From Granulosicoccus antarcticus IMCC3135 (GTDB lineage: Bacteria; Pseudomonadota; Gammaproteobacteria; Granulosicoccales; Granulosicoccaceae), in the NCBI RefSeq assembly GCF_002215215.1, contig NZ_CP018632.1, forward strand, positions 4,522,501-4,586,500: a stretch of DNA of 64,000 nt, written 5' to 3'. A program made the translations under genes and the position numbers. Under the pieces are notes generated by a model. The model did not search any database and had not been told where the DNA came from. It worked only from the letters and a program-made list of their open reading frames with translations. Positions 43,775 to 59,658 of the stretch are shown piece by piece. Position 1 is the stretch's first letter. Every line of letters starts with the position of its first letter.

Positions 43775-45319
43775 ATGCGATTGACGACGCTTTTCATTCT
43801 ACTGGTCCCCCTGACGCTCCTTGGCGCCTCAGCGTCAGCCTCCGAAGCACTGCTCAACTCCAAGTGCTCTTCGTGCCATGTTGCGCAAGACGACGGAAGT
43901 CTGTATCGCGTCAGTGAACAGCGCAAGACACCGGAAGGTTGGAACATGACCCTGTTCCGCATGGAAAAATCACACGGCCTGAAAATCACTGACGACGAAC
44001 GTCAGGATCTCATCCGCTATCTGTCCAATACGCTAGGTCTGGCACCGCAGGAAACCGCCTCACAAAGAGCGATTCTCGAGCGTCGGCCCGATTACATAGA
44101 AACACCGGCTGACGAGGATCTCAATGTTCTGTGCGCACGTTGCCATACCTTTGGACGTATCGCCCTACAGCGACGTACCGAAGTTGAATGGTTGAAGCAT
44201 GTGCATTTCCATGTCGGTCAGTTCCCCACTATCGAATATCAGGCGCTCTCTCGTGATCGCAACTGGTTCGACGATGCAATCAATATCGCGGTCCCCAAGT
44301 TGGCTGAACTATACCCACTGAAAACAGCAGAATGGGACGCCTGGCAAGCGGCCGACAAGCCATCGCCTGTTGGTGACTGGGTCGTGTTTGGGCACTGGCC
44401 CGGACGTGGAGATTTCAACGCCCTTATGAGTGCCAGCGGCGATAGCGAATCCATGGATATCACGATCAAGGGTCAATACAACGATGGCACAGCCATTGAT
44501 GATCAGGGACAGGCAACCTTGTATACCGGCTATGAATGGCGTGCTGATGCCAATGGCATTCGACAGATCATGGCCATGAGCGAAGATGGCAAAACCCTCA
44601 CTGGACGCTGGTTCAGGACAGAAGATGATTCTCTGGGCGCTCAGGTGAGCGCCGCTCGCATCGGCAGCGATGCAGGCGCTATTGCGCTCTCCCCTTCAGC
44701 GGCAAGAACGGGCAACACTACAAGTATCACCCTTTATGGTACTGAGCTGCCAGAGACCTTGTCGGCAGAGGGTATTCAGTTCACGAACGTCAGCCGTTCC
44801 AGTGACGGCACACAGTTGAGCGCCGATGCACTGGTTGCCGAAGGTGCCGCAGCCGGGCCACGTACACTGGCCGGTGGCGTGGAACTGATCGTCTTCGAAC
44901 AGATCGATCGCATCGCTGTGGAGCCTGCAGAAACCATTGCGCGGGTCGGATCCAATGGCGGACCGATTGCCGCAGTACCCGCACAATTCGACGCCATCGC
45001 CTGGTCAAATGGCAGCGATGGCGCTGCAGATACTGATGATGATCTTCGCATTGGTGTCGTCGAGGCAAGCTGGTCGAGCAACGCTTTTGATGCGCTCGCC
45101 GAAGAGGAAAAGGATGCTGAGTATGCAGGCAGCATCGATAGTACGACTGGCCTGTTTTCTCCGGCTGGCGCAGGTCCGAATCCGGAGCGTCGCTTCGGTA
45201 CCAATAATGTCGGCAATCTTTCCATTGACGCAACGGTCAATGAAAACGGGACCGACCTGACAGGCAGTGCACACCTTATTGTGACGGTACAACGTTTCAA
45301 TGATCCCCCTATTCGATAA
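43775..45319 (+). CDS. qhpA: Quinohemoprotein amine dehydrogenase alpha subunit (diheme)
   Basis: A 514-residue periplasmic protein. Signal peptide covers residues 1-22. Two heme c sites, C31-S-S-C-H35 and C120-A-R-C-H124, fill the N-terminal cytochrome domain; beta-rich domains follow, including LSPSAARTGNTTSITLYGTELP near residue 307. It carries electrons from the gamma-subunit quinone to an external cytochrome or azurin during amine oxidation. The order alpha, maturase, gamma, beta matches known qhp operons. Length is normal. Confidence 0.95.
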   Translation: MRLTTLFILLVPLTLLGASASASEALLNSKCSSCHVAQDDGSLYRVSEQRKTPEGWNMTLFRMEKSHGLKITDDERQDLIRYLSNTLGLAPQETASQRAILERRPDYIETPADEDLNVLCARCHTFGRIALQRRTEVEWLKHVHFHVGQFPTIEYQALSRDRNWFDDAINIAVPKLAELYPLKTAEWDAWQAADKPSPVGDWVVFGHWPGRGDFNALMSASGDSESMDITIKGQYNDGTAIDDQGQATLYTGYEWRADANGIRQIMAMSEDGKTLTGRWFRTEDDSLGAQVSAARIGSDAGAIALSPSAARTGNTTSITLYGTELPETLSAEGIQFTNVSRSSDGTQLSADALVAEGAAAGPRTLAGGVELIVFEQIDRIAVEPAETIARVGSNGGPIAAVPAQFDAIAWSNGSDGAADTDDDLRIGVVEASWSSNAFDALAEEEKDAEYAGSIDSTTGLFSPAGAGPNPERRFGTNNVGNLSIDATVNENGTDLTGSAHLIVTVQRFNDPPIR

Positions 45320-45334
45320 GTTGGAGCCCAGCCC

Positions 45335-46789
45335 TTGTCCTCAATGCTCAACTATGTTCATCACAACTGCCACGATGTAGAGGTGGATCAACGCCGTGTG
45401 TTGTTCCACATTCCCAGCTCTGCATTGTTCAACCTTGACCCCCTGAGTGCCGAGTTACTTGATCTTTTCAAGAATCAGGGAGCCCTGAGTGCAGTCGACC
45501 TGGAGACCCACTTTCGTGGTCGCTGCACCCCGGATAGCCTGCTTGAAGCCTTGCAGGAATTTCGTGACCTGGAAATAATCAGTGAGAACGCTGATCAGGT
45601 ACCCGCCAACCCCAAGGTCAGTATCGAGCAATACCCGCTTTCAACTCTGGTACTCAATGTGAATACGGGTTGCAACCTTGGCTGCACCTATTGTTACAAG
45701 GAAGACCTCACCACGCCCACACGCGGTGAGAAAATGGCCTTCGATACCGCTTGTAGCAGTATCGATCTGTTGCTCAAGGAAGGGGCCAGCCGCGAGCGCA
45801 TCAATATCGTGTTCTTCGGTGGTGAACCTCTGTCCAATTTACCACTCATCAAGGCCGCTACCGAGTATGCCGAGACGCGCTGTGCCGAACTGGGAGTCAC
45901 CGTTGATTTCTCGATGACAACCAACGCCACACTACTCAAAGAAGACACCGTGGACTGGCTCAACGCTCATCGCTTCTCCATTGCCATCAGCATGGACGGC
46001 CCGGCTGTCATTCATGACCGTCATCGCAAGACCATTGGCGGCAAAGGCACGCACGAACTGGTTGCTGCCAAGGCGCGCATGTTGCTCTCTCGATACGACT
46101 CACGTCCGGTGGGCGCCCGCGTTACTCTGACAAACGGCAACACCGACCTGCAAGCCATTCATCATCATCTGCGTGACGAGCTGGGTTTTTTCGAAGTCGG
46201 CTACGCACCGGTCACCACCAGCGATGTGGCTGTATTCAACCTTGATTCTGATGAATTGAAGACGGTGTTCGAAGGCATGAAAGCGCTGGGCCAGGATTAT
46301 CTCGAAAAAGCACTGGCCGGTTCCAACAACGGTTTTTCCAACATGCATCAATTGATGACCGACCTGCACCTGGGCTCTCGCAAGGCGCTGCCTTGCGGAG
46401 CTGGCGTCGGCATGCTGGCCGTGGATCACGAAGGAGAACTCAATCTCTGCCACCGATTTACCGGCTCCGATCTACCCACCTTCGGCAATGTCAAGATTGG
46501 CATCGACAAGCCCTCACTGGGCAAATTTCTGAACAAAGCTGCAGATCGATCGGGTCGAGGCTGTGAAACCTGCCAGATTCGCAACCTGTGCTCAGGTGGT
46601 TGCTATCACGAATCCTATGCGCACGATGGTGACCCGCTGAAGCCGGTCTATCACTATTGTGATCTGATGCGTGACTGGGTCGATTTCGGCATTGGTATCT
46701 ACAGCAGAATCATCGATGAAAATCCGGCGTTCTTTGACAAGCATGTGATGCCACGGAGAGTAAATTATGAAACGACTACAACCCATTAA
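45335..46789 (+). CDS. qhpD: Radical SAM/SPASM maturase of the amine dehydrogenase gamma subunit
   Basis: A 484-residue radical-SAM enzyme: C113-x3-C117-x2-C120 ([13 protein letters not shown]) plus a C-terminal SPASM/twitch cluster (CGAGVG...LCHRF and [14 protein letters not shown], ending HYC). QhpD forms the intrapeptidyl thioether bonds between Cys and Asp/Glu in QhpC in the cytosol. TTG 45335 is taken as start because GGAG lies 8 bases ahead; ATG 45344 is alternative. It overlaps qhpC by 23 bases. Confidence 0.95.
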
Positions 46790-47087
46790 TCGCAAGGCAG
46801 ATCTACTCAGGCAAGCCGTCGAAGAAGGCAAGCAAAAGGAGGTCTACAGCATGGCCACCATCGCAGGTTGCGCCAGCACCCTGGATCCGGGCTGGGAAGT
46901 TGATGCCTTTGGCGGCGTGGCAGCTCTCTGCCAGCCGATGGAAGCTGATCTGTACGGGTGTTCGGATCCTTGCTGGTGGCCTGCACAGGTACCCGATACC
47001 CTGAACACTTATCCAGACTGGGGGACAGGAGCTGATGATGCAGCCGAAGACTGGCGCAAGCTACAAAGCGTATTCCCCAAAAAATAA
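46767..47087 (+). CDS. qhpC: Quinohemoprotein amine dehydrogenase gamma subunit precursor (CTQ-bearing)
   Basis: A 106-residue precursor: a 28-residue leader, then a mature peptide beginning MATIAGC. Counting from there, the known crosslink positions are all kept: Cys7-Glu16, Cys27-Asp33 and Cys41-Asp49 thioethers, and Cys37 with Trp43 to form cysteine tryptophylquinone (YGCSDPCWW). The spacing agrees exactly with the Pseudomonas putida enzyme. The leader guides QhpD and is cut off by QhpE. It is the catalytic subunit. Confidence 0.96.
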
Positions 47088-47120
47088 TCCGGATAGTTCA
47101 GAAACCGCAGGAGATAGAGC

Positions 47121-48211
47121 ATGAGCTGTAAAGGGCAGACTTTCCGAGCGCTTCTGTGCGTATTGGGCCTGGCAGTATCCGGTATCTGTAGCGCTACCGA
47201 ATACCTGGTGGTAGCCAGCAAACCCAACTTGCTAAACATCGTCGATGTGAAGGCGCGCACGGTCGAAAAAAGCATCGAAATGCCGGACGCAGGTCCGGGG
47301 GCATGACCATATCCATAGACGAAGAACGTCATATTGCCTACGTGCTACTCAACAGTTGGGGCAGTGTGGCCGGCATTGATCTGAAAACCGGTGAGCAGGT
47401 ATTCCGCGCCGACCTTTCCCGTGATGGCAGACGTGTTCGAGCCATTCAGGGTATGGAGATCAGTCCCGACGGCAAACATGTATATGTCAACTGCTTACCG
47501 GTGAAGATAGGCTTGGGTGAATACGAGGTAGAAGACAACTACATCGCCGTGTTCAACACAGAGGATGGCTTGAATGCCGAGCCGGTACGCAAGATACCTG
47601 TCCCACGACGCGTAGCCGTATTGATGAGTTCCAATGACGGCACCGAGATTTATGCTTTGGGCCACGACCTGTACGTCTATGACGCGGCCACCGGTGAACA
47701 CCTGCGCGACTACCCTATTCGCGGCTGGGATGCCGCTGATCGCACGGCTCCCGATATTCTGGACTTCTGGAATCAGTGGGAACAATCCGATACCTTCTCC
47801 ACCCCCTTCTTTACCGTCGACACCTCAAAAGCGGAAGACGACCCAGCCGCTTACCGTATGGGTATGTTGACAATGGATCTGGAGAAAAAGGATTTCAGAA
47901 TGGATGAGTACGAGAATTTTGAAGTCATCATTTTCTCGACCGTAGTCAATCCCGTACGGCGCAACGAGGCCTACGGTGTGTACACACAATTGACCAAGAT
48001 CGACTTGGAAAAAGATGAACTCATTGCACGCAAGGATCTTGATCACACCTACTATGCTGTGAACGTTTCCAGTGATGGCAGTGAGCTGTATGCCGGAGGC
48101 ACGCTCAACGACATCGCCATCTATGACACGCAAACACTCGATAAAAAGGGCGAAATCATCATTCCGGGCGGCAACATGTCACTGAGTTCCATGAGAATGG
48201 TGGATATGTAA
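47121..48211 (+). CDS. qhpB: Quinohemoprotein amine dehydrogenase beta subunit, interrupted by a frameshift
   Basis: Two frames make one seven-bladed beta-propeller protein. 47121-47306 gives a signal peptide and blade 1 to MPDAGPGA-stop; 47303-48211 (302 residues) continues with MTISIDEERHIAYVLLNSWG, in the -1 frame. Paracoccus QhpB reads ...IADAGPTPM..., which shows the join. The shift lies at a run of five G (47297-47301); one more base there restores about 363 residues. Possible causes: a mutation, a base-call error in the homopolymer, or -1 slippage on GGGGG; ATGA at 47303 could even allow coupled restart of the second part. AGGAGA precedes the first ATG. Confidence 0.88.
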
Positions 48212-48247
48212 AGGCGCACGACAGCACTGAAGGAGGCGAAGACCTGC

Positions 48248-49924
48248 TTGCGTATTTCTGCCTCGCAGTACCAGTGGATACGACAGTTTCTGCAGCCGCG
48301 AATCCTGCCTTTGGCAGGCGTCATGGCGTTGGCTTTTCTGGGCACAGCCCTGAGTGTGCTCACGCCCTGGATTACCCGCAAGATCATCGACGATGGACTA
48401 ATCGCCGGTAACGTCAGTGTGCTGCAGAACTGGGTTGGCATCATGCTGCTGGTTGCAATCAGCGCAGCCCTGCTGACCGGCATCAACCGCATTGCCTATG
48501 TCGCCCTGTCCAGCGACATGCTCATGAGCATGCGTGCCTATTTGTTCGATCATCTGGGCTCGCTCTCACCCGGTTTCTACTTGCGCTGGCGGCAAGGCGA
48601 TCTGATCGCCCGGCTCGATGGCGATATGGGCGAAGTTCAGAGATTTCTCGTCGACAGCCTGCTGGCAGCCTTCAACAGTGTGCTGGCCTTTATCGGTGTT
48701 ATCTGGTTGATGCTGCTGTTAAGCCCGCAACTGACCTTGATCGCCTTTGTGTTGGTGCCTGCCAGTGTCCTGTTCCTCAAGCTCATGCGACCGCGCCTGG
48801 AGGCGCAGACCCGGCGCTTTCGCGAAAGCTCAACGGATGTGTCAGCCCTACTGGTTGACCGCCTGCCCAATATGCTGTTACTGCAGTCTTTTCTGGCCGT
48901 GACCAGCACCCGCAAAGAACTGGACAGCGTTCAATCACGCTATCGCGATGAACTGCTGCGCAATCAGGTTCTGGGCTATTGGGTGGCAACGGTGCCAGCC
49001 TTGTTCAACACCCTGGCAACAGCTGCGGTCTTCATTATCGGTGGTCATGCCGTTATCAACGGCAGCCTGACCCTGGGGACCCTGATTGCGTTCGCCAGCT
49101 ATCTGGGACGAGCCGCCGGGCCTGTCAACACCCTGCTCGGCTTGTATGTTGCCGCACAACGAGTCAAGGTCAGCCTGGCTCGCCTGCAACAACTGCTGGA
49201 CGAAGACCCAGCTGCCAGTGACCCGGTACAGCCACTGGAACTGCCGGCAGGACACGGCAAGCTGCAATTCACAAAGGTGAGTCACACCGCTGCGGGCACG
49301 GGTTCAGCCCCCTTGTGGCAGCCAGCCTCATTGATTATTCCCGCTGCCGCCCGCGTCTGGATCAGTGGTGATTCCGGGGCCGGGAAAACCACCTTGCTGC
49401 ATCTGCTGCAACGTCATGCGGATCCTGCACACGGCATCATTTCACTGGATTCTGTCGCACTGTCTGATCTGACGATCAACGATTTACGCCAGGCAATACT
49501 GCTGCTGCAACAGGATGCACCGATACTGGATGCAACGGTGCGTGACAACCTGACCCTGGGTGGCACGTTCAGTGACGAACAACTGATCGAGGCGATGAAC
49601 AATGCGCAATTGCACCCCTGGCTGAATTCACTTGACGCAGGTCTGGACACACGACTGGGCAACCGCGGTGCCCGCCTGTCCGGTGGTGAACGCCAACGCC
49701 TGGCATTGACACGTGCGTTTCTCAGACAACCGCGCGTGCTGCTGCTCGACGAGATCAGTGCCGCCATGGATACCGAACTGGAAAACAGAATCTGGCTAAC
49801 AGTGGATCGCCTGTTCACCCGTCAAAGCCTGCTGATTGTCAGCCATAGAAGGCCCGAACTGCCAGGGCTCAGCCATGAATTACGATTGCACGATGGTCGC
49901 TGGCAGCTGGAGGCACTGCCATGA
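48248..49924 (+). CDS. qhpF: ABC exporter for the crosslinked gamma subunit
   Basis: A 558-residue half-transporter: six membrane helices in residues 1-310 (ABC type-1 exporter fold, with ITRKIIDDGL and LARLDGDMGEVQRFLVD) and an ATPase with Walker A GDSGAGKTT, signature LSGGERQRLALTRAF, Walker B VLLLDEISAAMD. QhpF is thought to carry QhpC to the periplasm. The start is TTG 48248, behind AGGAGG. Its stop overlaps qhpE by 4 bases. A conventional lipid or peptide exporter is the only alternative; the locus decides. Confidence 0.92.
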   Translation: MRISASQYQWIRQFLQPRILPLAGVMALAFLGTALSVLTPWITRKIIDDGLIAGNVSVLQNWVGIMLLVAISAALLTGINRIAYVALSSDMLMSMRAYLFDHLGSLSPGFYLRWRQGDLIARLDGDMGEVQRFLVDSLLAAFNSVLAFIGVIWLMLLLSPQLTLIAFVLVPASVLFLKLMRPRLEAQTRRFRESSTDVSALLVDRLPNMLLLQSFLAVTSTRKELDSVQSRYRDELLRNQVLGYWVATVPALFNTLATAAVFIIGGHAVINGSLTLGTLIAFASYLGRAAGPVNTLLGLYVAAQRVKVSLARLQQLLDEDPAASDPVQPLELPAGHGKLQFTKVSHTAAGTGSAPLWQPASLIIPAAARVWISGDSGAGKTTLLHLLQRHADPAHGIISLDSVALSDLTINDLRQAILLLQQDAPILDATVRDNLTLGGTFSDEQLIEAMNNAQLHPWLNSLDAGLDTRLGNRGARLSGGERQRLALTRAFLRQPRVLLLDEISAAMDTELENRIWLTVDRLFTRQSLLIVSHRRPELPGLSHELRLHDGRWQLEALP

Positions 49925-50601
49925 GCGCCGGCCCGGTAAAAATTGGCATTCTTGATACGGGTTGTATCGGTACCGTTGCCGAACGCAAAGCCTTTCCTGC
50001 TCAAGACGACCCTGCCTGGCCAGCCGTCACCGTTAACGATCATGGCCATCGAATAGCAACCATCATCAGAACCCATTGCCCTGAGGCATGGCTATATGAT
50101 GGGCGCGCCCTGACTCAGGGGCTTGCCAGCAGCACCGAGCAGATCGCCAGCGCTTTGGAATGGCTGCTTGAGCAACAGGTGCATATCATCAACCTGAGTA
50201 TCGGACTGCGCCAGGACCGGCAGATTCTGGCCGATGCCATTTGTCGCGCTCACGACAAGAATGTTCTGCTGGTAGCCTCCGCCCCTGCATTGGGGTCTCC
50301 GGTATACCCCGCCGCCTATCATGGAGTCCTGGCGGTGACCGGTGATGCACGCTGCGCTGCCGGAGACTTTGCCAGTCTTGCACCATCGTCTGCAGGCGCA
50401 CCCCCTCACGCTCTGGATTTTGGTGCAGCCCCAGGTGGGCCACATCACCGCGCACACTCTCGCGGCATGGGAGCCAGTTTTGCCTGCGCACATGTCAGCG
50501 CTCGCCTGGCACAGCTATGGCTGACATCACCTGCTGGCGCTGATATCGTCGAGCGGCTTCATCAGCAATGCCTGTTCCGGGGTCGGGAATGCCAGCACTG
50601 A
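49921..50601 (+). CDS. qhpE: Subtilisin-like leader peptidase of the gamma subunit
   Basis: A 226-residue S8 serine protease without signal peptide, hence cytosolic. Catalytic triad: Asp12 (ILDTG), His41 (NDHGHRIA) and Ser186 (GMGASFACAH). It is shorter than classical subtilisins, as QhpE is. It removes the 28-residue leader from crosslinked QhpC. The start overlaps qhpF (ATGA); its end overlaps the next gene by about 13 bases. Confidence 0.93.
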   Translation: MSAGPVKIGILDTGCIGTVAERKAFPAQDDPAWPAVTVNDHGHRIATIIRTHCPEAWLYDGRALTQGLASSTEQIASALEWLLEQQVHIINLSIGLRQDRQILADAICRAHDKNVLLVASAPALGSPVYPAAYHGVLAVTGDARCAAGDFASLAPSSAGAPPHALDFGAAPGGPHHRAHSRGMGASFACAHVSARLAQLWLTSPAGADIVERLHQQCLFRGRECQH

Positions 50602-52658
50602 CTCTGATTGGTAATGCTCTGCTGCTTATCAGCCTGATAAGCCTTGCCCTGGGCTTGTATCGAAAGACAATCAGTCTCACACCCATCGTCTGTCTCTGGT
50701 CTGCCATTGTTCTACTGGAACTGGCACTGGCGTTCGATCGATTCGAGCTTGTTTATGTGTATAGCTACAGTGCAACAGCATTGCCCCTGTGGCTAAAGCT
50801 TGCCAGCCTCTGGGGTGGTGAGCAAGGCACGCTGCTGCTACTGAGTACCCTGCTCGCAACCCTTGGCTGGCATTATCGCGCCTGGCCCTCGACCCGAGTC
50901 GGTATGCAGCTCATTGCCCTGGCCATGTTGCTGGGTTGTCTCTGGTTCAATCCCTTTGCAGCCACCGGCACAATGGCCAACGAGGGACTCGGGCTCAACG
51001 CACATCTGGTCTCGCCCTGGATGGCGCTACACCCGCCAGCTGTATTACTCGCCTACAGTTTTCTGTGGCTGCCTGTCGGTGCCGCCATCCACGGTCTCAA
51101 CGGCGCCAACTCGGCCGCCTGGCTGGTCGCTGTTCGCGGCGCTGCCAGTGTCGGCTGGGGGCTGATGTGCCTGGGTCTGGCCAGCGGCATGTGGTGGGCC
51201 TTTCAGGATTTTACCTACGGCCAGTTCTGGCACTGGGATCCGGTTCAGACTGCCGTTTTCACGGTCTGGGCACTGGCCAGTGGGCAACTGCACGGCATAC
51301 GCCAGCTCAACCCGCAAAAACCGGCCCCCGCTCTGCTGCTCTGGTCCAGCGTTCTGTGCGCCATCAGCATTCCGTTAGCCTTGCTGATCGTGCGGGACAG
51401 TACTCTGGCAAGCTCGCACCGCTATATCGGCGATACCAGTCTGTGGCTGATGCTGATACTGGCTGCGGGTCAATTGCTAGCGGCACTCTGGGCTCGTTTT
51501 TCTCGCCAGCAGCGCACTATTGCCTCCAGGCAAGCCGTCATATTGATCATTGCCTGCTGGATGTTTTTCGCGATGGCTGCCGGTGCTGCCGGATCGCTCG
51601 CCTACAGTTATATCTGCGAGAATCTGCACTGTTCCCGAGATTTTGTGCCATTCAGACAAGCCGTCCTGAGTTGGACTGGCGGTGCTGAATATGCACACCT
51701 AGCCAAGGTGTTCGACCAATGGGAAGTCGATCATTTCGTGGTGGTGAGACTGCTGTTACCGCTAATGGCGGTCTTGCTGTTGATGACCGGTTACGCCTTT
51801 ATCCGTACCTCAACCAAGCGTGCCTTGTCGCTTACCGTAATTGCCGGCATTACCGGGCTTGCTGTCGGCCTTTATTTCAAACCACTTGAAAATCTGATCG
51901 ACGGTACCGGTGTAACAACCGCCCATACCATGCAGTTGTTCTCGGTACTCGACGTATTACTGATGTGGTGCCTCTGGGCGATACTGGCCACCCTGCTTTG
52001 GTGCTACCAGGCTTGGCGCAGGCGTGGCTGGAATGCCTGGTCTCGGCTGATACCGGTCGGCCTTGTTCATCTGGGTGCCATCCTCTTCATTGTCGGGGCA
52101 ACCATTGCCAGCACGCTTGACAGCAGTTTGCAGAAGACATTCAGCCTGCCAGCCCAGTACGGCAAACAGATTCGACTGGGCAGTGAATTCACGGTTACCC
52201 TGGATGCACCACAGTGGATTCAGAGCCATGATGGTATTGCAGGAGGCTCAGCCCTGAGCGCCCTGAGTCGTTGGCAATTCAGCACCTCGGATGGGCTTGC
52301 CCAGCAAGAGCACGCCAGTATCCTGTACCGGGACACACGGGCACAGCAAGATGGCACGCAGATGGGTAGCTTCAGACAACGCTGCATGATTCTGGACTAT
52401 CGATTTGCACGGGCGCTTGATCGTCCGGGCTATATGCTGCATCCGGTCATCAATCGAGGCTTGCTGGCCGACTGGCAAATCTGGATGCCCGCCGAGCCGC
52501 CACCATTGCAGGGCGAATCAAGGGAGCAACTGATGATTGCCCGACGCTTCCCCATGATGTCTTTGCTTTGGTCCGGACTTGTATTGATATTAGTGGGTAC
52601 AAGCCTGATTCTGTTGTCCGGCTTGCGGCGGACCGTCTATCCGGTCACTTCCCAGTGA
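50589..52658 (+). CDS. CcmF-like cytochrome c heme lyase in the qhp operon
   Basis: A 689-residue membrane protein with about 14-15 helices and one periplasmic domain near the C-terminus. CcmF/NrfE landmarks: SLWGGEQGTLLLL, the tryptophan-rich WWD-like block FWHWDPVQTAVFTVW, and the histidines of MALHPPAVLLAY, TLASSHRYIGD and VTTAHTMQLFS. CcmF attaches heme to CXXCH apocytochromes. It overlaps qhpE, so it is cotranslated with the amine-dehydrogenase genes; QhpA has two heme sites. I know of no CcmF in described qhp operons. ATG 50589, after GGGG, is preferred to ATG 50568. Confidence 0.9.
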   Translation: MPALTLIGNALLLISLISLALGLYRKTISLTPIVCLWSAIVLLELALAFDRFELVYVYSYSATALPLWLKLASLWGGEQGTLLLLSTLLATLGWHYRAWPSTRVGMQLIALAMLLGCLWFNPFAATGTMANEGLGLNAHLVSPWMALHPPAVLLAYSFLWLPVGAAIHGLNGANSAAWLVAVRGAASVGWGLMCLGLASGMWWAFQDFTYGQFWHWDPVQTAVFTVWALASGQLHGIRQLNPQKPAPALLLWSSVLCAISIPLALLIVRDSTLASSHRYIGDTSLWLMLILAAGQLLAALWARFSRQQRTIASRQAVILIIACWMFFAMAAGAAGSLAYSYICENLHCSRDFVPFRQAVLSWTGGAEYAHLAKVFDQWEVDHFVVVRLLLPLMAVLLLMTGYAFIRTSTKRALSLTVIAGITGLAVGLYFKPLENLIDGTGVTTAHTMQLFSVLDVLLMWCLWAILATLLWCYQAWRRRGWNAWSRLIPVGLVHLGAILFIVGATIASTLDSSLQKTFSLPAQYGKQIRLGSEFTVTLDAPQWIQSHDGIAGGSALSALSRWQFSTSDGLAQQEHASILYRDTRAQQDGTQMGSFRQRCMILDYRFARALDRPGYMLHPVINRGLLADWQIWMPAEPPPLQGESREQLMIARRFPMMSLLWSGLVLILVGTSLILLSGLRRTVYPVTSQ

Positions 52659-53219: not shown

Positions 53220-54260
53220 ATGGGGCTTCAGGCGCACTTCAACACATTTCACAACAAGATCAAGCTTAGTCGCGAAGACGAGGCATATAAAAAAGCACGT
53301 GAACGTGACAACAGCATAACGGCTGACGTAAAAGAGGAATTCAAAGATGCCGGTTACCCGGTAATCGATGACTTTCTCACGGGTTCACACGGCAACAACA
53401 CTGCCATTCATCCACTTTCGGGCGATCTGGATATTGATCGAACACTGGTTATTGATGACGATCAGGCGCCTGAGAATCCGCTGGACCCTAAGAAAAAAAC
53501 GCTCTCGGTACTGGAAGATCGAGGATTTAAGAATGCCAAAATCAAAATGTCCTGTGTCACCGCAGACTACGCAAGTGACAACGTGCATATCGACTACCCC
53601 ATTTACAAAAAATCGGGTGATTCGTATTCACTAGCCATCGGGAAGAATAACTCAGACGAGAAAAACCGTGAATGGTCTCCTTCCGATCCGAAAGGACTAA
53701 AAAGCTGGGTGAAAGATCAGTCGGTACACGCCGCGCCGGCTGAAAAGAAGCACGATCAATATCGTCGTCTCGTTCGCTATCTGAAACGGTGGAGAGATTT
53801 CAAATTTTCCGATCCTGTTCTATCTAAGGTCTATTCGATCGGACTCACGGTCATGGCAAAAGAGTGCTTTGTCTCTGACCTTGATTCTGAGGGCTTTCCG
53901 AGCGACCTGTCAGCGCTAAGTCAAACCGTTAGCCAGATACTAGACAACGAGTACTTTACATGCGTTGACGTGGATGCAGATCGCTACAAAGTGCAGGTCG
54001 CTTTACCGGTTTCACCCTATCGCGATATTTTCGATGGCTCCAGCGCTGACACGGGGACGCAGTTTCGCAATCGACTAAAGAAGATGCTCAGTAAGCTCGA
54101 AGAAGCGGAAGGCCTGGACGATGTGCGCAAGCAGTGCCAGATCATGAATGAGTTGTTCGGTGATGACTTCCCTGTGCCCGATGCCCCGAAGACGCCAGAT
54201 GGAAAAGCCGCGAAGACGTTCTCTTCAGCTGGTGCGGTTGGTACATCACAAGGCGCATGA
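53220..54260 (+). CDS. CBASS cyclic-nucleotide synthase (CD-NTase)
   Basis: A 346-residue cGAS/DncV-like nucleotidyltransferase. The active-site strand reads TGSHGNNTAIHPLSGDLDIDRTLVI: Gly55-Ser56 and the acidic D69-x-D71-x-D73 cluster; the third metal carboxylate is Asp126 in VHIDYPIY. It makes a cyclic oligonucleotide alarm on phage infection. The tail is long and flexible and ends in Gly-Ala, suited to Cap2-dependent conjugation through the C-terminus. First gene of the operon; it overlaps cap2 by 4 bases. The nucleotide product cannot be read from sequence. Confidence 0.9.
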   Translation: MGLQAHFNTFHNKIKLSREDEAYKKARERDNSITADVKEEFKDAGYPVIDDFLTGSHGNNTAIHPLSGDLDIDRTLVIDDDQAPENPLDPKKKTLSVLEDRGFKNAKIKMSCVTADYASDNVHIDYPIYKKSGDSYSLAIGKNNSDEKNREWSPSDPKGLKSWVKDQSVHAAPAEKKHDQYRRLVRYLKRWRDFKFSDPVLSKVYSIGLTVMAKECFVSDLDSEGFPSDLSALSQTVSQILDNEYFTCVDVDADRYKVQVALPVSPYRDIFDGSSADTGTQFRNRLKKMLSKLEEAEGLDDVRKQCQIMNELFGDDFPVPDAPKTPDGKAAKTFSSAGAVGTSQGA

Positions 54261-55084
54261 ATCACGTTGAAATAGTTGAACACCTGGTAGCAACTGGATT
54301 CAACGCAATGCATAATGAGAGCTGTGACTGCCTTTCAGTGTCGTTCGATATCAACGGCCAGAAAGCAACGCTGCTCCATCGCTTTCCCGAAGGTAAACTG
54401 ATAGAAAAGCTCCCGGTCTTTTCCTTGCTTGAGCCGATGCAATTTGGGCACCTTGCTCATCTCATGTATAGCGCGGATAAACAGAGCGCCGCTATTTGCG
54501 CAGGAGACAACGGAACGGTATCGATCAACTATGACGTTCCTACTCTGGTGTACGAATACGCACTGAATCGGCAAGTCGAACTGGTGCGGCAGGCGGCAAC
54601 TGATGCCGGCTGGAATCACACTGAACTGATTCGGGAGTTCTCACCTAATTGGGCTTTAATTTGCGACAAAATAGTCTGTCCCACCCTGTACTGTGCGGCT
54701 TCAGATGATGACAATGAACACGTACAAACAAAAACGCCTGCGCCAAAAGAGGAATTTGGCCTTCAGTCCAAACTACTTGCTTTAGCTGAGCCGCTATCAC
54801 ATGGAGACGTGTTTAAAGCGATACGTCACTCTGCAAAATGGGACTCCAGGCCAGTATCCGGAAAAACGATCATGCTCGATTTGAGCGCGATCGAGGCAGC
54901 ACCATTACTTGCTGATGACGTACCAAGATGGTATGCGAACGCGGTAAAGTCACTAACGACTTCATCAGGTAACAGATTTAATCGCTATGCTCGACTCAAG
55001 AGTAAGCGTCATTGGGTGATATTCAATGCGAGCACACCGACGGGGATTGTTCGCTGTGCAGTACGGTTCGATAGCCTAAGGTAA
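54257..55084 (+). CDS. cap2: Cap2, E2-like N-terminal part (gene frameshifted)
   Basis: 275 residues forming the E2 half of Cap2 and its linker. The likely E2 catalytic cysteine is Cys81 in SAAICAGDNG, followed by NYDVPTLVYEYALNR, the common pattern of bacterial E2-like domains. Intact Cap2 is one E2-E1 protein of about 580-600 residues that conjugates the CD-NTase C-terminus to a target and so primes signalling. Here the frame ends at TAA 55082 while the sequence continues in another frame (next entry). Confidence 0.82.
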   Translation: MNHVEIVEHLVATGFNAMHNESCDCLSVSFDINGQKATLLHRFPEGKLIEKLPVFSLLEPMQFGHLAHLMYSADKQSAAICAGDNGTVSINYDVPTLVYEYALNRQVELVRQAATDAGWNHTELIREFSPNWALICDKIVCPTLYCAASDDDNEHVQTKTPAPKEEFGLQSKLLALAEPLSHGDVFKAIRHSAKWDSRPVSGKTIMLDLSAIEAAPLLADDVPRWYANAVKSLTTSSGNRFNRYARLKSKRHWVIFNASTPTGIVRCAVRFDSLR

Positions 55085-55985
55085 CAACAAACGATCCATT
55101 CCTTTATCTGAAGCTGATTGCAAGCTATGGAAAATAGATCCCGTTGAGGTCGCTGTATTAGATCGGGATAGGTTATTACCACGCAGTGGCGCATTGACTG
55201 AGCTACACGAAAAATCGATTCTCATTGTAGGCTGCGGATCTGTGGGGAGTGAGCTTGCAACCGCTATCGCGTGCACCGGTGTTGGTGAAATCCACCTTTC
55301 CGATCCGGATAATTTTTCAAGCGACAATTTGTACAGACATACATTGGGTTTGCGTAGCGTCGGCATGCCAAAATCTGTCTGTGTCGCGCACGATCTTAGC
55401 CTTCATTATCCGTGGATTGTTACGCAGTGGGATCAAGAGACGCTTCAGTTAAAGACAGATGTGGAGAAGCTCAATCAGTACGACCTTATTGTCGTTGCGA
55501 TTGGCACGCCGACCATCGAGCGACAATTTCATGATTTTGTAACAACAAATGATGTGAAGACGCCCGTTCTCTATACCTGGCTAGAAGGTTACGGCATCGG
55601 CGGTCATGCTGTACTCGATATACCCAAGTCTCAAGGGTGTCTTCGATGCGCATACCTCGATCCAGACACCTGTGAGCAAGGACTCGCATCGAACTTGAAT
55701 TTTCTTTCCCCGAACCAGGACATCACGACAACGCTGGCTGGGTGTGGGCATCAATTCATCCCGTACAGCGGTATTTCAGCAAAGACGACTGCAGCCATGG
55801 CGGCAGAAATGGCGATGGGATACCTAAACGGGCTGAATACCAAATCGTCGCGAGTTAGCTGGAGAGGAAGTGAGCAGGCAGCCCTCGATGTAGGTCTTTC
55901 AGTTTCTTATCGATATCATTCCTTCACTCAATCCTTACAGGTTGAGCCACTGAAAAACCGAGAATGTGATGTCTGTGTTGGCTGA
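55080..55985 (+). CDS. cap2: Cap2, E1-like C-terminal part (out of frame with E2 part)
   Basis: From 55080 the +1 frame is open for about 301 codons: linker (VAVLDRDRLLPRSGALTELHEKSI), then the ThiF/E1 nucleotide-binding motif LIVGCGSVGSELA, SDPDNFSSDNLYRHTLG, a zinc pair (GCLRC and ECDVC), and a candidate catalytic Cys in LAGCGHQFIPYS. The only start-like codon, TTG 55194, lies inside the conserved linker, so this is not an independent gene; a one-base lesion near 55079-55084 explains the split. Joined length is about 577 residues, normal for Cap2. Confidence 0.82.
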   Translation, partial: GNNKRSIPLSEADCKLWKIDPVEVAVLDRDRLLPRSGALTELHEKSILIVGCGSVGSELATAIACTGVGEIHLSDPDNFSSDNLYRHTLGLRSVGMPKSVCVAHDLSLHYPWIVTQWDQETLQLKTDVEKLNQYDLIVVAIGTPTIERQFHDFVTTNDVKTPVLYTWLEGYGIGGHAVLDIPKSQGCLRCAYLDPDTCEQGLASNLNFLSPNQDITTTLAGCGHQFIPYSGISAKTTAAMAAEMAMGYLNGLNTKSSRVSWRGSEQAALDVGLSVSYRYHSFTQSLQVEPLKNRECDVCVG

Positions 55986-56472
55986 CTACCCTGTTCACTA
56001 TGCAGGCCTAGGCCGATCGGTCCACATACATCACAAGGTTTGGCTGCTTTGGCGTTCTCAAAGGCAAATCAGGCTTGAAACGCCCGAAACTGCAGGTGTT
56101 CTCATTGGCCTTTCAAGCGAGGATAATAAGACTATCTGGATTCAGGATTCGACAATAGCGACACCCTTTGATGAGCAATCGCGTCACTATTTCAAGCTTA
56201 CCGATAGCATGCATCAGAGCATGGTCAACGACGCCTACGAAAAATCAAACGGTGCTCAAATCTACCTGGGAACGTGGCACACACATCCACAAGATATACC
56301 CAACCCATCTCACGTTGATCTAGATGATTGGAAACACTGTGTACACAGAAATACGGGACGACCATTGGTGTTTGCCATTGTGGGCACTCAGGCAGTGCGC
56401 CTGTACTCCAAATGGGGAAATCACTTCAAATCACTAAAGCTAAAGGAATGTGCAATCGATGAATTGCGGTAA
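55969..56472 (+). CDS. cap3: Cap3, JAMM/JAB deconjugating protease
   Basis: A 167-residue metalloprotease with a complete JAMM motif: Glu40 (PETAGVLIG), then H104-T-H106-P, Ser114 and Asp117 (HTHP-x6-S-x2-D). It cleaves CD-NTase conjugates made by Cap2, setting the signal level. The start overlaps the end of cap2 by 17 bases (GTG 55966 also possible). The gene appears intact. Confidence 0.92.
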   Translation: MSVLADYPVHYAGLGRSVHIHHKVWLLWRSQRQIRLETPETAGVLIGLSSEDNKTIWIQDSTIATPFDEQSRHYFKLTDSMHQSMVNDAYEKSNGAQIYLGTWHTHPQDIPNPSHVDLDDWKHCVHRNTGRPLVFAIVGTQAVRLYSKWGNHFKSLKLKECAIDELR

Positions 56473-57406
56473 CACACTTATTCAAACAACCGAAAAGCCT
56501 TTTTCAACGTTAAAGCAGGCAACTGAGTTTCTTGAGTTGGTGGGAAGTGAATTGGCCTGGACAGGCGCAGGGGTAATTTATGATAAAGAGCCCGGTGCGA
56601 TTCTATTTTTATTGCTGGTCGACGAGGCTATCGTCTGTGTTTTTCGCTGTGCCTTAGCGTTAGACGATACCGTTGCTATTGCAACTTTAATGGTGGGTTC
56701 AACTACTGACGAATTCATCATTGCTTCAACGCCAGGGTTATCGTTTCCACACGACGATGTTCGTAGCCTTGAAAAATTGAACGAGCACTGGGGTATCGCC
56801 CAGTCTGCCGGAGTGTCGATCGCCGAACTACATAATCTATTCGATTCTTTGTTCAAGAGCATTCTGACTAAAGGGCGTGGGGCAAATATAAAAACAGACA
56901 CTCGAAATCAAGTGTTGTTGGATTCACACGGTCGATGTATGTTTGATGGATGCTCAGTTGATTTGACAATAGATCATCTCACTGGTAAAACAGGCAATTA
57001 CAAAACTTTGGCACATAATGTCGCTTCGTCAGAGCAAGGTGCTCGAGGCGTGGTTTATTTATCAAATGAGCTGTCCAATAAGCCTGAGAACATTCTGGTG
57101 TTGTGTGATGTCCATCATCGATTGGTGGATTCTGTGGCTAAAGCCGAATACCCAGCGCATGTAATTACCGATATGCGTTCACGATTTTGTAATCAGGCCA
57201 AAAATCTTCTCGACTCAATGCGCTACGAGCCGATGCCCGCGATATGTGTATGTTGGCCAGTACGAGACGATCAATTTTCCTTGCCTACTGAACAGCAAAT
57301 AGCGGAGTCACTTAAACCCCTAAAAGCACGATGGTCTGGTGAGTTTCTTCCGATAGTAGAAAAGGATGAGACACTGAGATCGATGGATCAGGCAGACCGA
57401 TGGAGA
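56459..57406 (+). pseudogene. Cap5-like HNH-SAVED effector, N-terminal part (split by IS66 element)
   Basis: 316 codons before the insertion: an uncharacterised domain (residues 1-145), then an HNH nuclease: C160-x4-C165, D172-H173 (TIDHL), N211 (ENILVLC), C216-x2-H219-H220. The frame runs 26 codons into the element and stops at 57484. Joining 57406 to 59029 gives ...ADRWRV|LPAAINAAA in frame and about 525 residues. Canonical Cap5 is about 380-400 residues, HNH then SAVED, so the N-terminal domain is extra. ATG 56459 follows AAGGA; GTG 56450 is possible. Without SAVED the nuclease should not be activated. Confidence 0.85.
57399..57406. repeat. Target-site duplication, left copy
   Basis: GATGGAGA, repeated at 59021-59028; the flanking C makes it 9 bp if the element ends at 59019. 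The wider identical string is ACCGATGGAGAGT (57396-57408 and 59018-59030), because the element ends happen to match the target by a few bases. Confidence 0.85.
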
Positions 57407-57492
57407 GTAAGCGTTCACGGCGTTGGAATAGCGTTTTCTGACTATGTAGGCTATTCTGAAGAAAAGGCCCTGCGAGTTTATTAGCCATCATC

Positions 57493-58968
57493 GTGCCCGA
57501 TCCTCATCTATTAAATCCACCCCAAACGCTTGATGAGGCTCGCACTCAGATCGAGCAATTGTGGGGTGTGGTCGGTCAGTTAGAATCGATAGTCTCAGAA
57601 CTTAAAGCGCAAAATGAGGAGCTTGTTGAACAGGTTCGAGAGCTGAACGAACGCATGGGCAAAAGCTCGCGTAACTCCTCCCGTCCACCCTCTTCAGACT
57701 CCACCTCGCAACGAGCCAACCGAAAAAAGAAACCCAAATCTACAAAACGAAAGGGTGCGCAGCCGGGTCATGAAAAGCACGAACGCCCGCTGGTACCCGA
57801 AAGTGATGTCGATCAGATTCAGCGCTATTTTCCGACCGCGGCCTGTGGCTGTGGTGGCTCTATTTTTGTCGATCCCGAGCCACGCTGTCGTCACCAGGTG
57901 TTTGATATCCCGGTGGTGCGTTTTTCAGTGATTGAGCATCAGCTGTTCGGTGGGCAATGCAACGGGTGTGGCAAACATCATTGCGCCCAGACTCCCGATA
58001 GCGTGCCTTCGGGGCAGATGGGCCCCAATCTGGTGGCACTTATCGCTCATCTGTCCGGGCGTTATCATTTGTCGATTCGTAATATTCAGGATTATCTGGT
58101 TGAGCACTGGCAGTTGCATTTCAGTCTCGGTGCCCTCTCTCAGGCTCAGGCAAAAGCGACGAGCGCATTAGGCGACCCGTACCGACAGATTGGCGATTTT
58201 GTTCGCCAACAACCCGTGGCGCATGCCGATGAAACACGGCATTTTCGCGGCAATGAGTGCCGTTGGCTGTGGTCGTTAGTGTGTGTGCAAGCTTGCTATT
58301 TCCTGACACAGGCCTCGCGCGGCAAAGAGGCTGCCGATAGGCTGTTAGGCGAATTCACAGGGTATTTGGTCACTGATGACTACGTGGGTTATAACCGTGT
58401 ACCGGAAAGTCGTCGTCAACTGTGTTGGCCGCACCTGATTCGAAAATTCATCGATATTGCTGGACGGGTAAGCAATGGCGGCAAGATCGGACGCCGACTT
58501 TTATTACTTGCCCACGCGGTTATCCGCACCCGACATCGATGGCAAGATCAACTCATCGACGAGGCCGTTTATTACCGGCGAATGCAGCGACTACGCCGCA
58601 GCTTTCACCAGACGCTGGAGCGAGGTGCCCGGCTACGAATCGATGGGCGAACCAAACGTCAATGCCAACATCTTCTCAAGCGAGAATCTATGTGTTGGAC
58701 CTTTCTCAAAGATCACAGGATCCCGCTAGACAACAATAGCGCTGAGCGTGCGCTTCGGCCCTATGTGATCTGGCGCAAGTTGAGCTTTGCCACCCAATCT
58801 TATCAAGGCGATCAGTTTCGTCCCTTGATACTGAGCATCGTGGGCACTGCACAACGGATAGGGATCTCAAGCTATCAGTTTATCCGCATCGCGTGTCACC
58901 AGTCGATGATTGAGGGCGAGGTGAAAGTGCGCTTTCCGTTTGATACGCCTCGGTTAGCGACTAGCTGA
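57493..58968 (+). CDS. IS66-family transposase (TnpC type)
   Basis: A 491-residue DDE transposase. N-terminal coiled coil (residues 12-55, EQLWGVVGQLESIVSELKAQNEEL), an S/P-rich SSRNSSRPPSSDS segment, a zinc-binding region (CGCGG...CNGCGKH), then the core: Asp in HADETRHF, Asp in VTDDYVGYNR and Glu in LDNNSAERALRPYVIWRK. The start is GTG 57493. The frame is uninterrupted, so the element may still be mobile. Confidence 0.93.
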   Translation: MPDPHLLNPPQTLDEARTQIEQLWGVVGQLESIVSELKAQNEELVEQVRELNERMGKSSRNSSRPPSSDSTSQRANRKKKPKSTKRKGAQPGHEKHERPLVPESDVDQIQRYFPTAACGCGGSIFVDPEPRCRHQVFDIPVVRFSVIEHQLFGGQCNGCGKHHCAQTPDSVPSGQMGPNLVALIAHLSGRYHLSIRNIQDYLVEHWQLHFSLGALSQAQAKATSALGDPYRQIGDFVRQQPVAHADETRHFRGNECRWLWSLVCVQACYFLTQASRGKEAADRLLGEFTGYLVTDDYVGYNRVPESRRQLCWPHLIRKFIDIAGRVSNGGKIGRRLLLLAHAVIRTRHRWQDQLIDEAVYYRRMQRLRRSFHQTLERGARLRIDGRTKRQCQHLLKRESMCWTFLKDHRIPLDNNSAERALRPYVIWRKLSFATQSYQGDQFRPLILSIVGTAQRIGISSYQFIRIACHQSMIEGEVKVRFPFDTPRLATS

Positions 58969-58991
58969 AAGAATCAGCTGCGGTTCCTACA

Positions 58992-59005
58992 CCCCGCATG
59001 CGGGG
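58992..59005 (+). terminator. Perfect 14-bp palindrome after the transposase gene
   Basis: CCCCGCATGCGGGG, 23 bases after the transposase stop and directly inside the right inverted repeat. It may end the transposase message or hinder read-in from outside. There is no T-run. Confidence 0.5.
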
Positions 59006-59020
59006 CCGTGAACGGTTACC

Positions 59021-59028
59021 GATGGAGA
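59021..59028. repeat. Target-site duplication, right copy
   Basis: GATGGAGA, the partner of 57399-57406. Removing the element with one copy restores the reading frame of the effector. Confidence 0.85.
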
Positions 59029-59658
59029 GTGCTTCCTGCAGCGATAAATGCCGCGGCCACAAGAGTTGAGGTAGTCGCATCAGGTAAAAACTACCGCGCT
59101 GCACTATTCGCAACCGGCACCATGCCTGCGCTTATCGCACTTGGTGCGAAAATAGGAAACAAGTCCTCTATTTTCCCAATGCTGAAGCATCGTGAAGGTG
59201 GAAAATGGTTTTGGCCTGCAAATGATCCGACAGACGATTGTTCAAACATCACTGGACTGGGCGAGCTGTCTGCAAACGAACCGGAGGTCACCATCCAGTT
59301 AGCATTGACCGCTCTACCAGAGGGCATGGAGAAAGCTGCCAGTGATCTGGGTCATAAGATCCTGATGATCAGGCCCGAAGGTGATCTTACTAATGGTGTG
59401 CTGGGGCATCCGGAAGATGCTTTGTCGTTCAGACAACGTATTCAAGAGTTGCTCCATCTGCTCAAAGATAAGCACAACGTCAGTAAAGTCCATCTTATGC
59501 CTTGTGCATCGAATGCCGCCTGTGTCTGCTTTGGTCAGGCAATAGACAACTACCATCCAGATATTTTGCTCTACGACTTCATCGATGAGGCAAAAACCAT
59601 GGAACCTCGTATCCTGATTTCTACTACCGGGAATAGATGTGAAATCCACACTGCTTAA
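59029..59658 (+). pseudogene. Cap5-like effector, SAVED-domain C-terminal part
   Basis: 209 codons after the insertion: LPAAINAAATRVEVVASGKNYRA, then EGGKWFWPANDP and ending ILISTTGNRCEIHTA. The helical LSFRQRIQELLHLLKD and HLMPCASNAACVCFGQAIDNYHPDILLYDF blocks are the second Rossmann-like half of SAVED (P-A-ACV-FG...P...YDF), the ligand sensor for cyclic oligonucleotides. An in-frame ATG at 59008 inside the element could start a short SAVED-only protein, but it lacks the nuclease. Together with 56459-57406 it forms one ancestral gene. Confidence 0.82.

Follow-up and report, generated by a model that had tools for sequence, protein, structure and literature searches.

A CcmF homologue linked to quinohemoprotein amine dehydrogenase genes and its co-variation with a residue beside one heme site of QhpA

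Introduction

Why should the operon of a single amine dehydrogenase carry its own homologue of the heme lyase protein CcmF? The question is raised by a 64,000-nucleotide stretch of the Granulosicoccus antarcticus IMCC3135 genome (contig NZ_CP018632.1, positions 4,522,501–4,586,500, forward strand), the whole of which is referred to here as the window. In the window, genes for quinohemoprotein amine dehydrogenase (QHNDH) are followed by a gene for a CcmF-like protein of 689 amino acids (50589–52658, plus strand), which we refer to as ccmFq, a name coined in this analysis for the qhp-linked CcmF homologue. The open reading frame (ORF) is intact and spans 50568–52658 (696 amino acids), with an in-frame ATG at 50589 and a possible earlier start at 50568. 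An earlier note made from the DNA alone had described a dedicated heme lyase that overlaps qhpE and continues the run qhpA-D-C-B-F-E, and this arrangement is borne out by the intact ORF, the NCBIfam calls and an overlap of 13 bp from the start at 50589 (34 bp from the start at 50568).

The gene belongs to a clade of its own, apart from ordinary CcmF, and its presence varies with an asparagine three residues ahead (position -3) of the first CXXCH motif of QhpA, the alpha subunit with two c-type hemes. Our favoured reading, held with modest confidence, is that ccmFq is a dedicated CcmF-type protein for heme I of QhpA. As the earlier note stated, such a gene would be an addition to the known set, given as qhpABCDEFGR in the excerpts available of Oozeki et al. 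2021 (PMC7876137); ccmFq lies in the same operon and orientation but is not part of that set, and would be the ninth gene of this cofactor pathway. No paper joining amine dehydrogenase, or quinohemoprotein amine dehydrogenase, with ccmF was found in open-licence PMC full texts, nor by wider searches among the matches listed. In Methyloversatilis on methylamine, qhpA, qhpB and a SAM-radical activating subunit (there called QhpC) increase approximately 10-fold, and the terms "ccmF" and "cytochrome c biogenesis" are absent from the main text of that expression study, as far as its accessible portion goes (PMC5023235).

Results and discussion

A separate clade of CcmF homologues

The G. antarcticus genome (7.78 Mb, one contig) contains three further places matching the Pfam family PF01578 (Cytochrom_C_asm), namely a normal CcmF, CcmC and a CcsA-like protein. 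The normal ccmF adjoins ccmC/E/G/H in a separate ccm operon, hence we rejected the possibility, allowed for by the earlier note, that ccmFq is simply the housekeeping copy. Ordinary CcmF was also found alongside ccmFq in every carrier (18/18) among 36 QHP genomes scanned, 17 of which had been chosen as carriers, with P. jinjuensis added when it proved to have a copy. CcmE was detected in 34 of the 36 genomes (18/18 with ccmFq, 16/18 without), counts so alike that they are no evidence either way, and none of the 36 was a System II host using ccmFq without CcmE.

We built an unrooted tree from 18 qhp-linked copies together with E. coli NrfE and 32 ordinary CcmF, after omitting three CcmF rows repeating other loci and L044 (a near relative of L043). 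All 18 qhp-linked copies were separated from all 33 CcmF/NrfE sequences with support of 100/100. The single clade that the earlier note proposed to look for is therefore present, and its members come from Alpha-, Beta- and Gammaproteobacteria. The branches flanking the split are very long (2.83 and 3.36 changes per column) and exceed those that separate CcmF from NrfE. The place of the window copy inside the clade is unsure owing to its long row (2.01), and 13 rows, mostly qhp, were flagged for unusual letter composition. A kinship of ccmFq with NrfE, the nitrite reductase protein to which the earlier note had likened it, was rejected because E. coli NrfE falls with ordinary CcmF.

Profile matches place ccmFq among the relatives of CcmF and yet far below the named family. 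The window protein passes PF01578 (69.1 bits, cut-off 29.9), which also matches 18/18 clade members at E 0.1 or better, whereas it scores 86 bits against a curated cut-off of 569 for the CcmF model TIGR00353, and no NCBIfam model matches it above its own cut-off. Three profiles matched all 18 members, NrfE profiles among them. The WWD core is shared with CcsA/CcsBA of System II, but the NCBIfam model TIGR03144 matches 8/18 members only (best E 9.4e-08).

A structure model was built with AlphaFold2 on the 18-row alignment (predicted local distance difference test 77.1, predicted template modelling score 0.82; residues 577–602, including C599, are poor). In Foldseek, Thermus CcmF (6zmq) was the sole match with E ≤ 0.001 (E 9e-15). 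Superposition on 6zmq gave a VIA Z of 29.2 over 543 residues at 3.5 Å, and the next structure, CcsBA (7s9y), gave a VIA Z of 19.1 over 269 residues, limited to model residues 4–318; VIA rows besides 6zmq, CcsBA and CcmC were disregarded as common helical arrangements. The predicted fold of ccmFq is that of CcmF.

Residues were compared between the 18 qhp copies and the 33 CcmF/NrfE rows. Four histidines of the window protein, H148 (51030–51032), H235 (51291–51293), H277 (51417–51419) and H494 (52068–52070, all plus strand), correspond to E. coli CcmF H173, H261, H303 and H491, and each is conserved in 18/18 qhp copies and 33/33 CcmF/NrfE. We take the E. coli residues to be P-His1, TM-His1, P-His2 and TM-His2, respectively. 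The earlier note was right that the altered WWD motif WHWDPVQ (51228–51248, plus strand) is present, although it had counted three histidine motifs rather than four. In E. coli CcmF numbering, W229, W240 and D243 are kept in 18/18 copies, as are the tryptophans W216 and W253, the proposed electron conduit. The roles of the four heme ligands and of these two tryptophans in CcmF are described in the portions available of PMC10663686 and PMC10746174. The likeness to CcmF (TIGR00353, Thermus 6zmq, E. coli CcmF) thus extends to fold, WWD region, four ligand histidines and two conduit tryptophans.

Other functional positions differ, with Phe241 replaced by His and Asn247 by Thr in 18/18 copies, and Trp236 by Tyr or Phe. 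Furthermore, the clade has invariant residues of its own, H139, H215 and R596/C599/D603/Y604/A607/R608. The R596–R608 segment has no CcmF counterpart; C599 (52383–52385, plus strand), in the C-terminal part ahead of the last helix, is present in 18/18 qhp copies and aligned to a gap in 33/33 CcmF/NrfE. WHWDPVQ and this cysteine were also present in eight further ccmFq copies examined.

Co-variation with a residue beside heme I of QhpA

In the window, qhpA (43775–45319, plus strand) encodes a heme I site CSSCH at 43865–43879 and a heme II site CARCH at 44132–44146, and Asn28 (43856–43858) stands at -3 of the former. A comparison of alignment columns of QhpA, QhpB, QhpC and QhpD between loci with and without ccmFq singled out N28 as the best follower of ccmFq presence. 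At the level of loci, Asn was found at -3 in 23/28 with ccmFq versus 4/54 without (Fisher 9e-12, a value that ignores kinship), 17 loci that were cut short, ambiguous or duplicate being omitted. At the level of genomes (107 QhpA rows), it was found in 44/51 with ccmFq versus 5/56 without; L039, L071, L064, L023 and L027 were dropped here, and L012 and L015 skipped as genes of L072 and L073. When only tightly linked copies were labelled as present, the counts were 37/38 versus 5/56.

Kinship was addressed on a QhpD tree, which yielded 12 independent pairs on supported branches differing in ccmFq. Asn differed the same way in about eight, the opposite way in none, and did not differ in about four (p 0.0078). 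Applied to all 1454 columns of the four proteins, this analysis ranked N28 first, with a score of 7.76 (second column 5.75; others mean 0.46, sd 1.03). The evidence for N28 is its rank together with the absence of opposing pairs. Eleven of the top 12 columns lie in QhpA and one in QhpD, with none in QhpC, which points to QhpA rather than QhpC as the partner of ccmFq. The chance of at least 10 of the 12 falling in QhpA is 0.0009 assuming independent columns, and neighbouring columns are dependent.

Several loci act as natural experiments. In L010, ccmFq is cleanly missing between flanks 89% identical to those of L011, and ahead of the first heme site, CQACH, its QhpA reads IISAK where L009 and L011 read IINAK, with Ser in place of Asn. 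Three genomes with an Asn QhpA and no copy at the qhp locus as far as examined (L163–L165) carry ccmFq elsewhere. P. jinjuensis has an Asn QhpA without local ccmFq (L041), and the copy of this genome is beside a second qhpA (L130). In both solved QHNDH alpha chains (1jju and 1jmx), position -3 is occupied by Gln instead of Asn.

Distribution and linkage to qhp genes

Genome contigs were scanned by QhpD alignment, and the best 80 of 512 loci were searched for ccmFq with a profile of 21 sequences picked by tblastn, which match it by construction. Complete copies scored at least 818 bits, and three that are truncated where a locus or contig ends scored 822, 797 and 429 bits; the housekeeping CcmF of G. 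antarcticus, which is outside the profile, scored 109 bits. The search of other qhp operons suggested by the earlier note did find copies, in 17 of these 80 loci, or 16 distinct genes, since L080 and L038 are two readings of one gene. At a contig edge, locus L039 has a 74-aa fragment (20.6 bits). Among the hosts are Thauera, Methyloversatilis, Pseudomonas thermotolerans, and metagenome-assembled genomes (MAGs) of Emcibacter and Rhodospirillales.

Linkage to qhp genes was close. Within the one genus judged to hold P. jinjuensis (25 genomes), ccmFq was detected in 21 genomes and QhpD in 24, and all copies (22/22) lie within approximately 6 kb of a qhpD. Genomes G105, G951 and G958 of this genus have QhpD without ccmFq, while G952, the sole genome without qhpD, has no ccmFq either. 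In the family of Thauera sp. Sel9 the gene was present in 6/121 genomes, with the three examined (L150–L152) qhp-linked, and in the sample of the window's class only in G. antarcticus itself (1/369 genomes, E 1e-45, best three candidates per genome scored). A search of plasmids gave no ccmFq match at E 1e-30. Among 42 linked loci mapped, ccmFq was always on the qhpD strand (42/42), and its distance from the nearest qhp gene, measured between tblastn hit ends, had a median of 275 bp and exceeded 600 bp in three loci only (L068, L086, L091).

Two gene orders were frequent among the mapped loci, ccmFq-A-D-C-B (21/42, all from the 25-genome genus) and A-D-C-B-F-E-ccmFq-G (9/42, counting the window if the 10 kb before qhpG are ignored). 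The second order, with ccmFq between qhpE and qhpG, would suit a role in the maturation or export of QhpC, the cysteine tryptophylquinone (CTQ) subunit, rather than one on QhpA. We consider this highly improbable, since no QhpC column is among the top 12 and the 21 copies of the first order stand directly ahead of qhpA. The candidate role of ccmFq as a replacement for QhpG was dropped, as qhpG is present 10 kb downstream in the window and beside ccmFq in other loci.

The gene is not in all qhp operons, and 56 of the 107 QhpA rows come from genomes in which no copy was found, some of them incomplete MAGs. On the QhpD tree the locus-level label changes 10 times, with seven changes forced by well-supported branches, hence the idea that ccmFq marks a single qhp lineage was rejected. 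The same patchiness, and the majority of sampled qhp loci without the gene, would be expected if ccmFq were a redundant CcmF paralogue of the ordinary kind, retained through linkage without any dedicated function, and the correlation with Asn came from shared ancestry. This is very unlikely in our view, because the clade is deep and separate with 18/18 changes at functional positions, unlinked copies are retained along with Asn QhpA, and the independent pairs run at about 8 to 0.

Further features of individual loci were observed. The copies of L163–L165, from Emcibacter-like MAGs, have no qhp genes in the surrounding DNA examined, the qhpA-D-C genes of these genomes being elsewhere; in L163 and L164 ccmFq is near a glutathione-transferase-like gene of the kind seen in L024, and the match in the L163 genome carries one in-frame TAG. 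Thauera sp. Sel9 (L086, L037) and T. butanivorans (L038, L080) have two qhp clusters per contig. In Sel9 ccmFq lies downstream of each cluster. The second-cluster QhpA has Arg, not Asn, ahead of heme I. In L037 (15340–16125) and L047 (17528–18331), ccmFq is closely followed by a gene for a small protein of about 265 aa whose start resembles a signal sequence, and a similar-looking small protein follows qhpG in L035 (18788–19579).

Proposed role of ccmFq

An intact heme-handling core, together with the tracking of a residue beside one site, makes a maturation factor for the heme I site the simplest explanation. The pattern suggests that ccmFq serves the one heme site beside Asn -3, where it may act as a lyase. 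The protein most likely lies in the inner membrane, where TM-His1 and TM-His2 presumably hold a b heme. Heme, probably supplied by the general chaperone CcmE, would be taken at the periplasmic P-His1/P-His2/WWD site, and once QhpA has been exported ccmFq would help to attach this heme to the first CXXCH, recognising or requiring the Asn three residues ahead of that motif. The second heme would be loaded by the general Ccm pathway, as would both hemes in species without ccmFq.

System I synthases are generally regarded as accepting nearly any CXXCH, and if our reading is true ccmFq would be, to our knowledge, the first System I-type synthase seen choosing among plain CXXCH sites. Known dedicated synthases go with odd motifs, whereas here a dedicated, strongly altered CcmF accompanies a plain-motif enzyme, and since the presence of ccmFq predicts one residue beside one of two sites, the idea of a synthase that reads beyond CXXCH becomes testable. 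The nearest parallels are NrfE (NrfEFG) and SirE (SirEFG), each a private homologue of CcmF whose gene accompanies those of a single cytochrome enzyme, in addition to a general CcmF. These serve the odd motifs CXXCK and CX12NKGCH, according to the excerpts available of PMC6976685. Both have F/G partners, whereas the proposed target of ccmFq is a plain CXXCH and the loci tested showed no partner gene resembling CcmH. The analogy with NrfE drawn by the earlier note does not extend to kinship or motif, as QhpA lacks the CXXCK of NrfA and E. coli NrfE, unlike ccmFq, groups with ordinary CcmF and retains the glutamate discussed below; SirE is absent from our tree. Ordinary CcmF differs from ccmFq in turn by its place in the ccm operon and by lacking the extra segment with invariant Cys599.

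A number of findings weigh against the proposed role. The motifs of QhpA are two plain CXXCH in 86/88 rows, with or without ccmFq (the remaining two, L023 and L027, are cut at the start), which led us to reject an odd heme motif as the reason for ccmFq. Most sampled qhp loci lack the gene (16 distinct genes in the best 80 of 512 loci), so that the claim that QhpA heme sites need a special lyase agrees with the co-variation at the first site but cannot apply to QhpA in general. Seven of the 51 rows with ccmFq are without Asn, five having Arg, in Thauera, and two Lys. In three of the Thauera Arg rows (L068, L086 and L091), more than 5 kb separate ccmFq from the nearest qhp gene; of the Lys rows, L085 has a tightly linked copy and L178 is a second qhp cluster that lacks a copy of its own. 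Conversely, five of the 56 rows from genomes in which no ccmFq was found have Asn, namely L022 and L025 (2.6 Mb MAGs), L029 and L032 (Azohydromonas), and L090. With the tightly linked label, only five of eight pairs are informative (5 to 0, p 0.0625), and as N28 was picked as the best of 1454 columns no single p value is a proper test. A correlation, moreover, is no proof of heme attachment. Finally, no CcmH, CcmG or CcmE homologue was detected at E 0.01 in 20 ccmFq loci by a search that recovered both ccm control loci and in which NrfF and NrfG were not queried.

On the same side of the balance is the replacement of CcmF Glu246 by Gln in 18/18 ccmFq copies (Q220 in the window), where 33/33 CcmF/NrfE have Glu. 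In the sections available of PMC10746174, Glu246 is one of two CcmF residues whose Ala and Cys variants both lose synthase function, no Gln variant being described there, and ccmFq is a natural Glu-to-Gln experiment at a residue held essential. This change calls for caution over attachment, as ccmFq could be a lyase that works by an altered mechanism, a helper that does no catalysis or an electron conduit. Of the dedicated heme lyase in the earlier note, the extra qhp-associated CcmF-type gene stands, but its heme attachment is putative, and Gln replaces the essential Glu throughout the copies compared.

The conduit is in our estimate unlikely; it would be a heme protein descended from CcmF that has lost the attachment function and uses its retained membrane heme and a periplasmic heme to pass electrons between QhpA and the quinone pool, for instance in the final oxidation that yields CTQ or in enzyme turnover. 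It would account for the loss of a Glu essential to attachment while heme ligands and tryptophan conduit remain, for the new invariants H139, H215 and C599, and for a co-varying residue that adjoins heme I of QhpA. In addition, alanine variants of the CcmF WWD motif were all still purified with CcmH and holoCcmE, as reported in the accessible part of PMC10746174. However, the kept P-His2, W229 and D243 present heme for attachment in CcmF and are explained more easily by attachment, a correlation at -3 of CXXCH suits a maturation factor that reads an unfolded site, and many qhp operons manage without ccmFq.

The non-catalytic helper would be specific to QhpA and assist the general CcmFH lyase as a chaperone or as a docking partner, aiding the loading or folding of the heme domain and performing no chemistry. 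The absence of Glu246 fits this equally, as do the ordinary ccmF and CcmE in 18/18 scanned carriers and the fact that ccmFq can be missing beside an otherwise intact structural operon. We rate it as quite unlikely, because the four heme ligands and the conduit tryptophans are all conserved, suggesting that ccmFq itself handles heme and electrons. A role of ccmFq as a dedicated CcmF-type protein for heme I is thus retained as the favoured reading. The bolder statement, that it is either a site-specific heme lyase reading Asn -3 or a permanent two-heme electron path maturing or re-oxidising the amine dehydrogenase at the membrane, is put forward tentatively, as one we would sooner doubt than assert; if it is true, lyase and electron path alike would be a novel function of the CcmF fold.

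Gene content of the window

All qhp genes of the window are on the plus strand. Upstream of ccmFq, qhpA (TIGR03908, 582.7 bits, cut-off 274) is followed by qhpD, the radical SAM maturase (45335–46789; TIGR03906, 728.6 bits, cut-off 453), qhpC, the gamma subunit and CTQ precursor (46767–47087; NF037958, 167 bits, cut-off 50), qhpB, the beta subunit (47121–48211; TIGR03907, 377 bits, from profile position 37), qhpF, an ABC exporter (48248–49924; ABC_membrane and ABC_tran), and qhpE, a subtilisin-like protease (49921–50601; NF049966, 189 bits, cut-off 165). While the other five exceed NCBIfam cut-offs, qhpF was assigned from its position and its similarity (41% identity) to the exporter of another qhp locus. 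Downstream, the flavoprotein monooxygenase gene qhpG (62789–64000; 35% identity over 400 aa to a qhpG-like gene of another qhp locus) lies approximately 10 kb from ccmFq and is cut by the end of the window.

The beta subunit gene is in two frames, with an N-terminal piece from 47121 and the remainder from 47303, the frame break being at about 47300 where there is a run of five G. Both pieces are similar to other QhpB, and the split is either a sequencing error in the one-contig assembly or a broken beta subunit. This split, the distant qhpG and the separate ccm operon with its own ccmF were points that the earlier note had missed.

QhpD above the cut-off was found in 1/48 genomes of the window's order, namely that of G. 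antarcticus, which suggests that the qhp operon (43775–50601) was acquired; two other genomes of the order have a QhpD relative at 311–315 bits, below the cut-off of 453. Between ccmFq and qhpG, at 53220–59658, are genes resembling a Type II cyclic oligonucleotide-based antiphage signalling system (CBASS), with a cyclase, E1-E2, JAB and a SAVED-HNH effector, and this island is what parts qhpG from the remaining qhp genes. The E1-E2 gene is spread over two ORFs, and the match to the effector ends just before an ORF (57493–58968) that may encode an IS66-type transposase, hence the island looks degraded.

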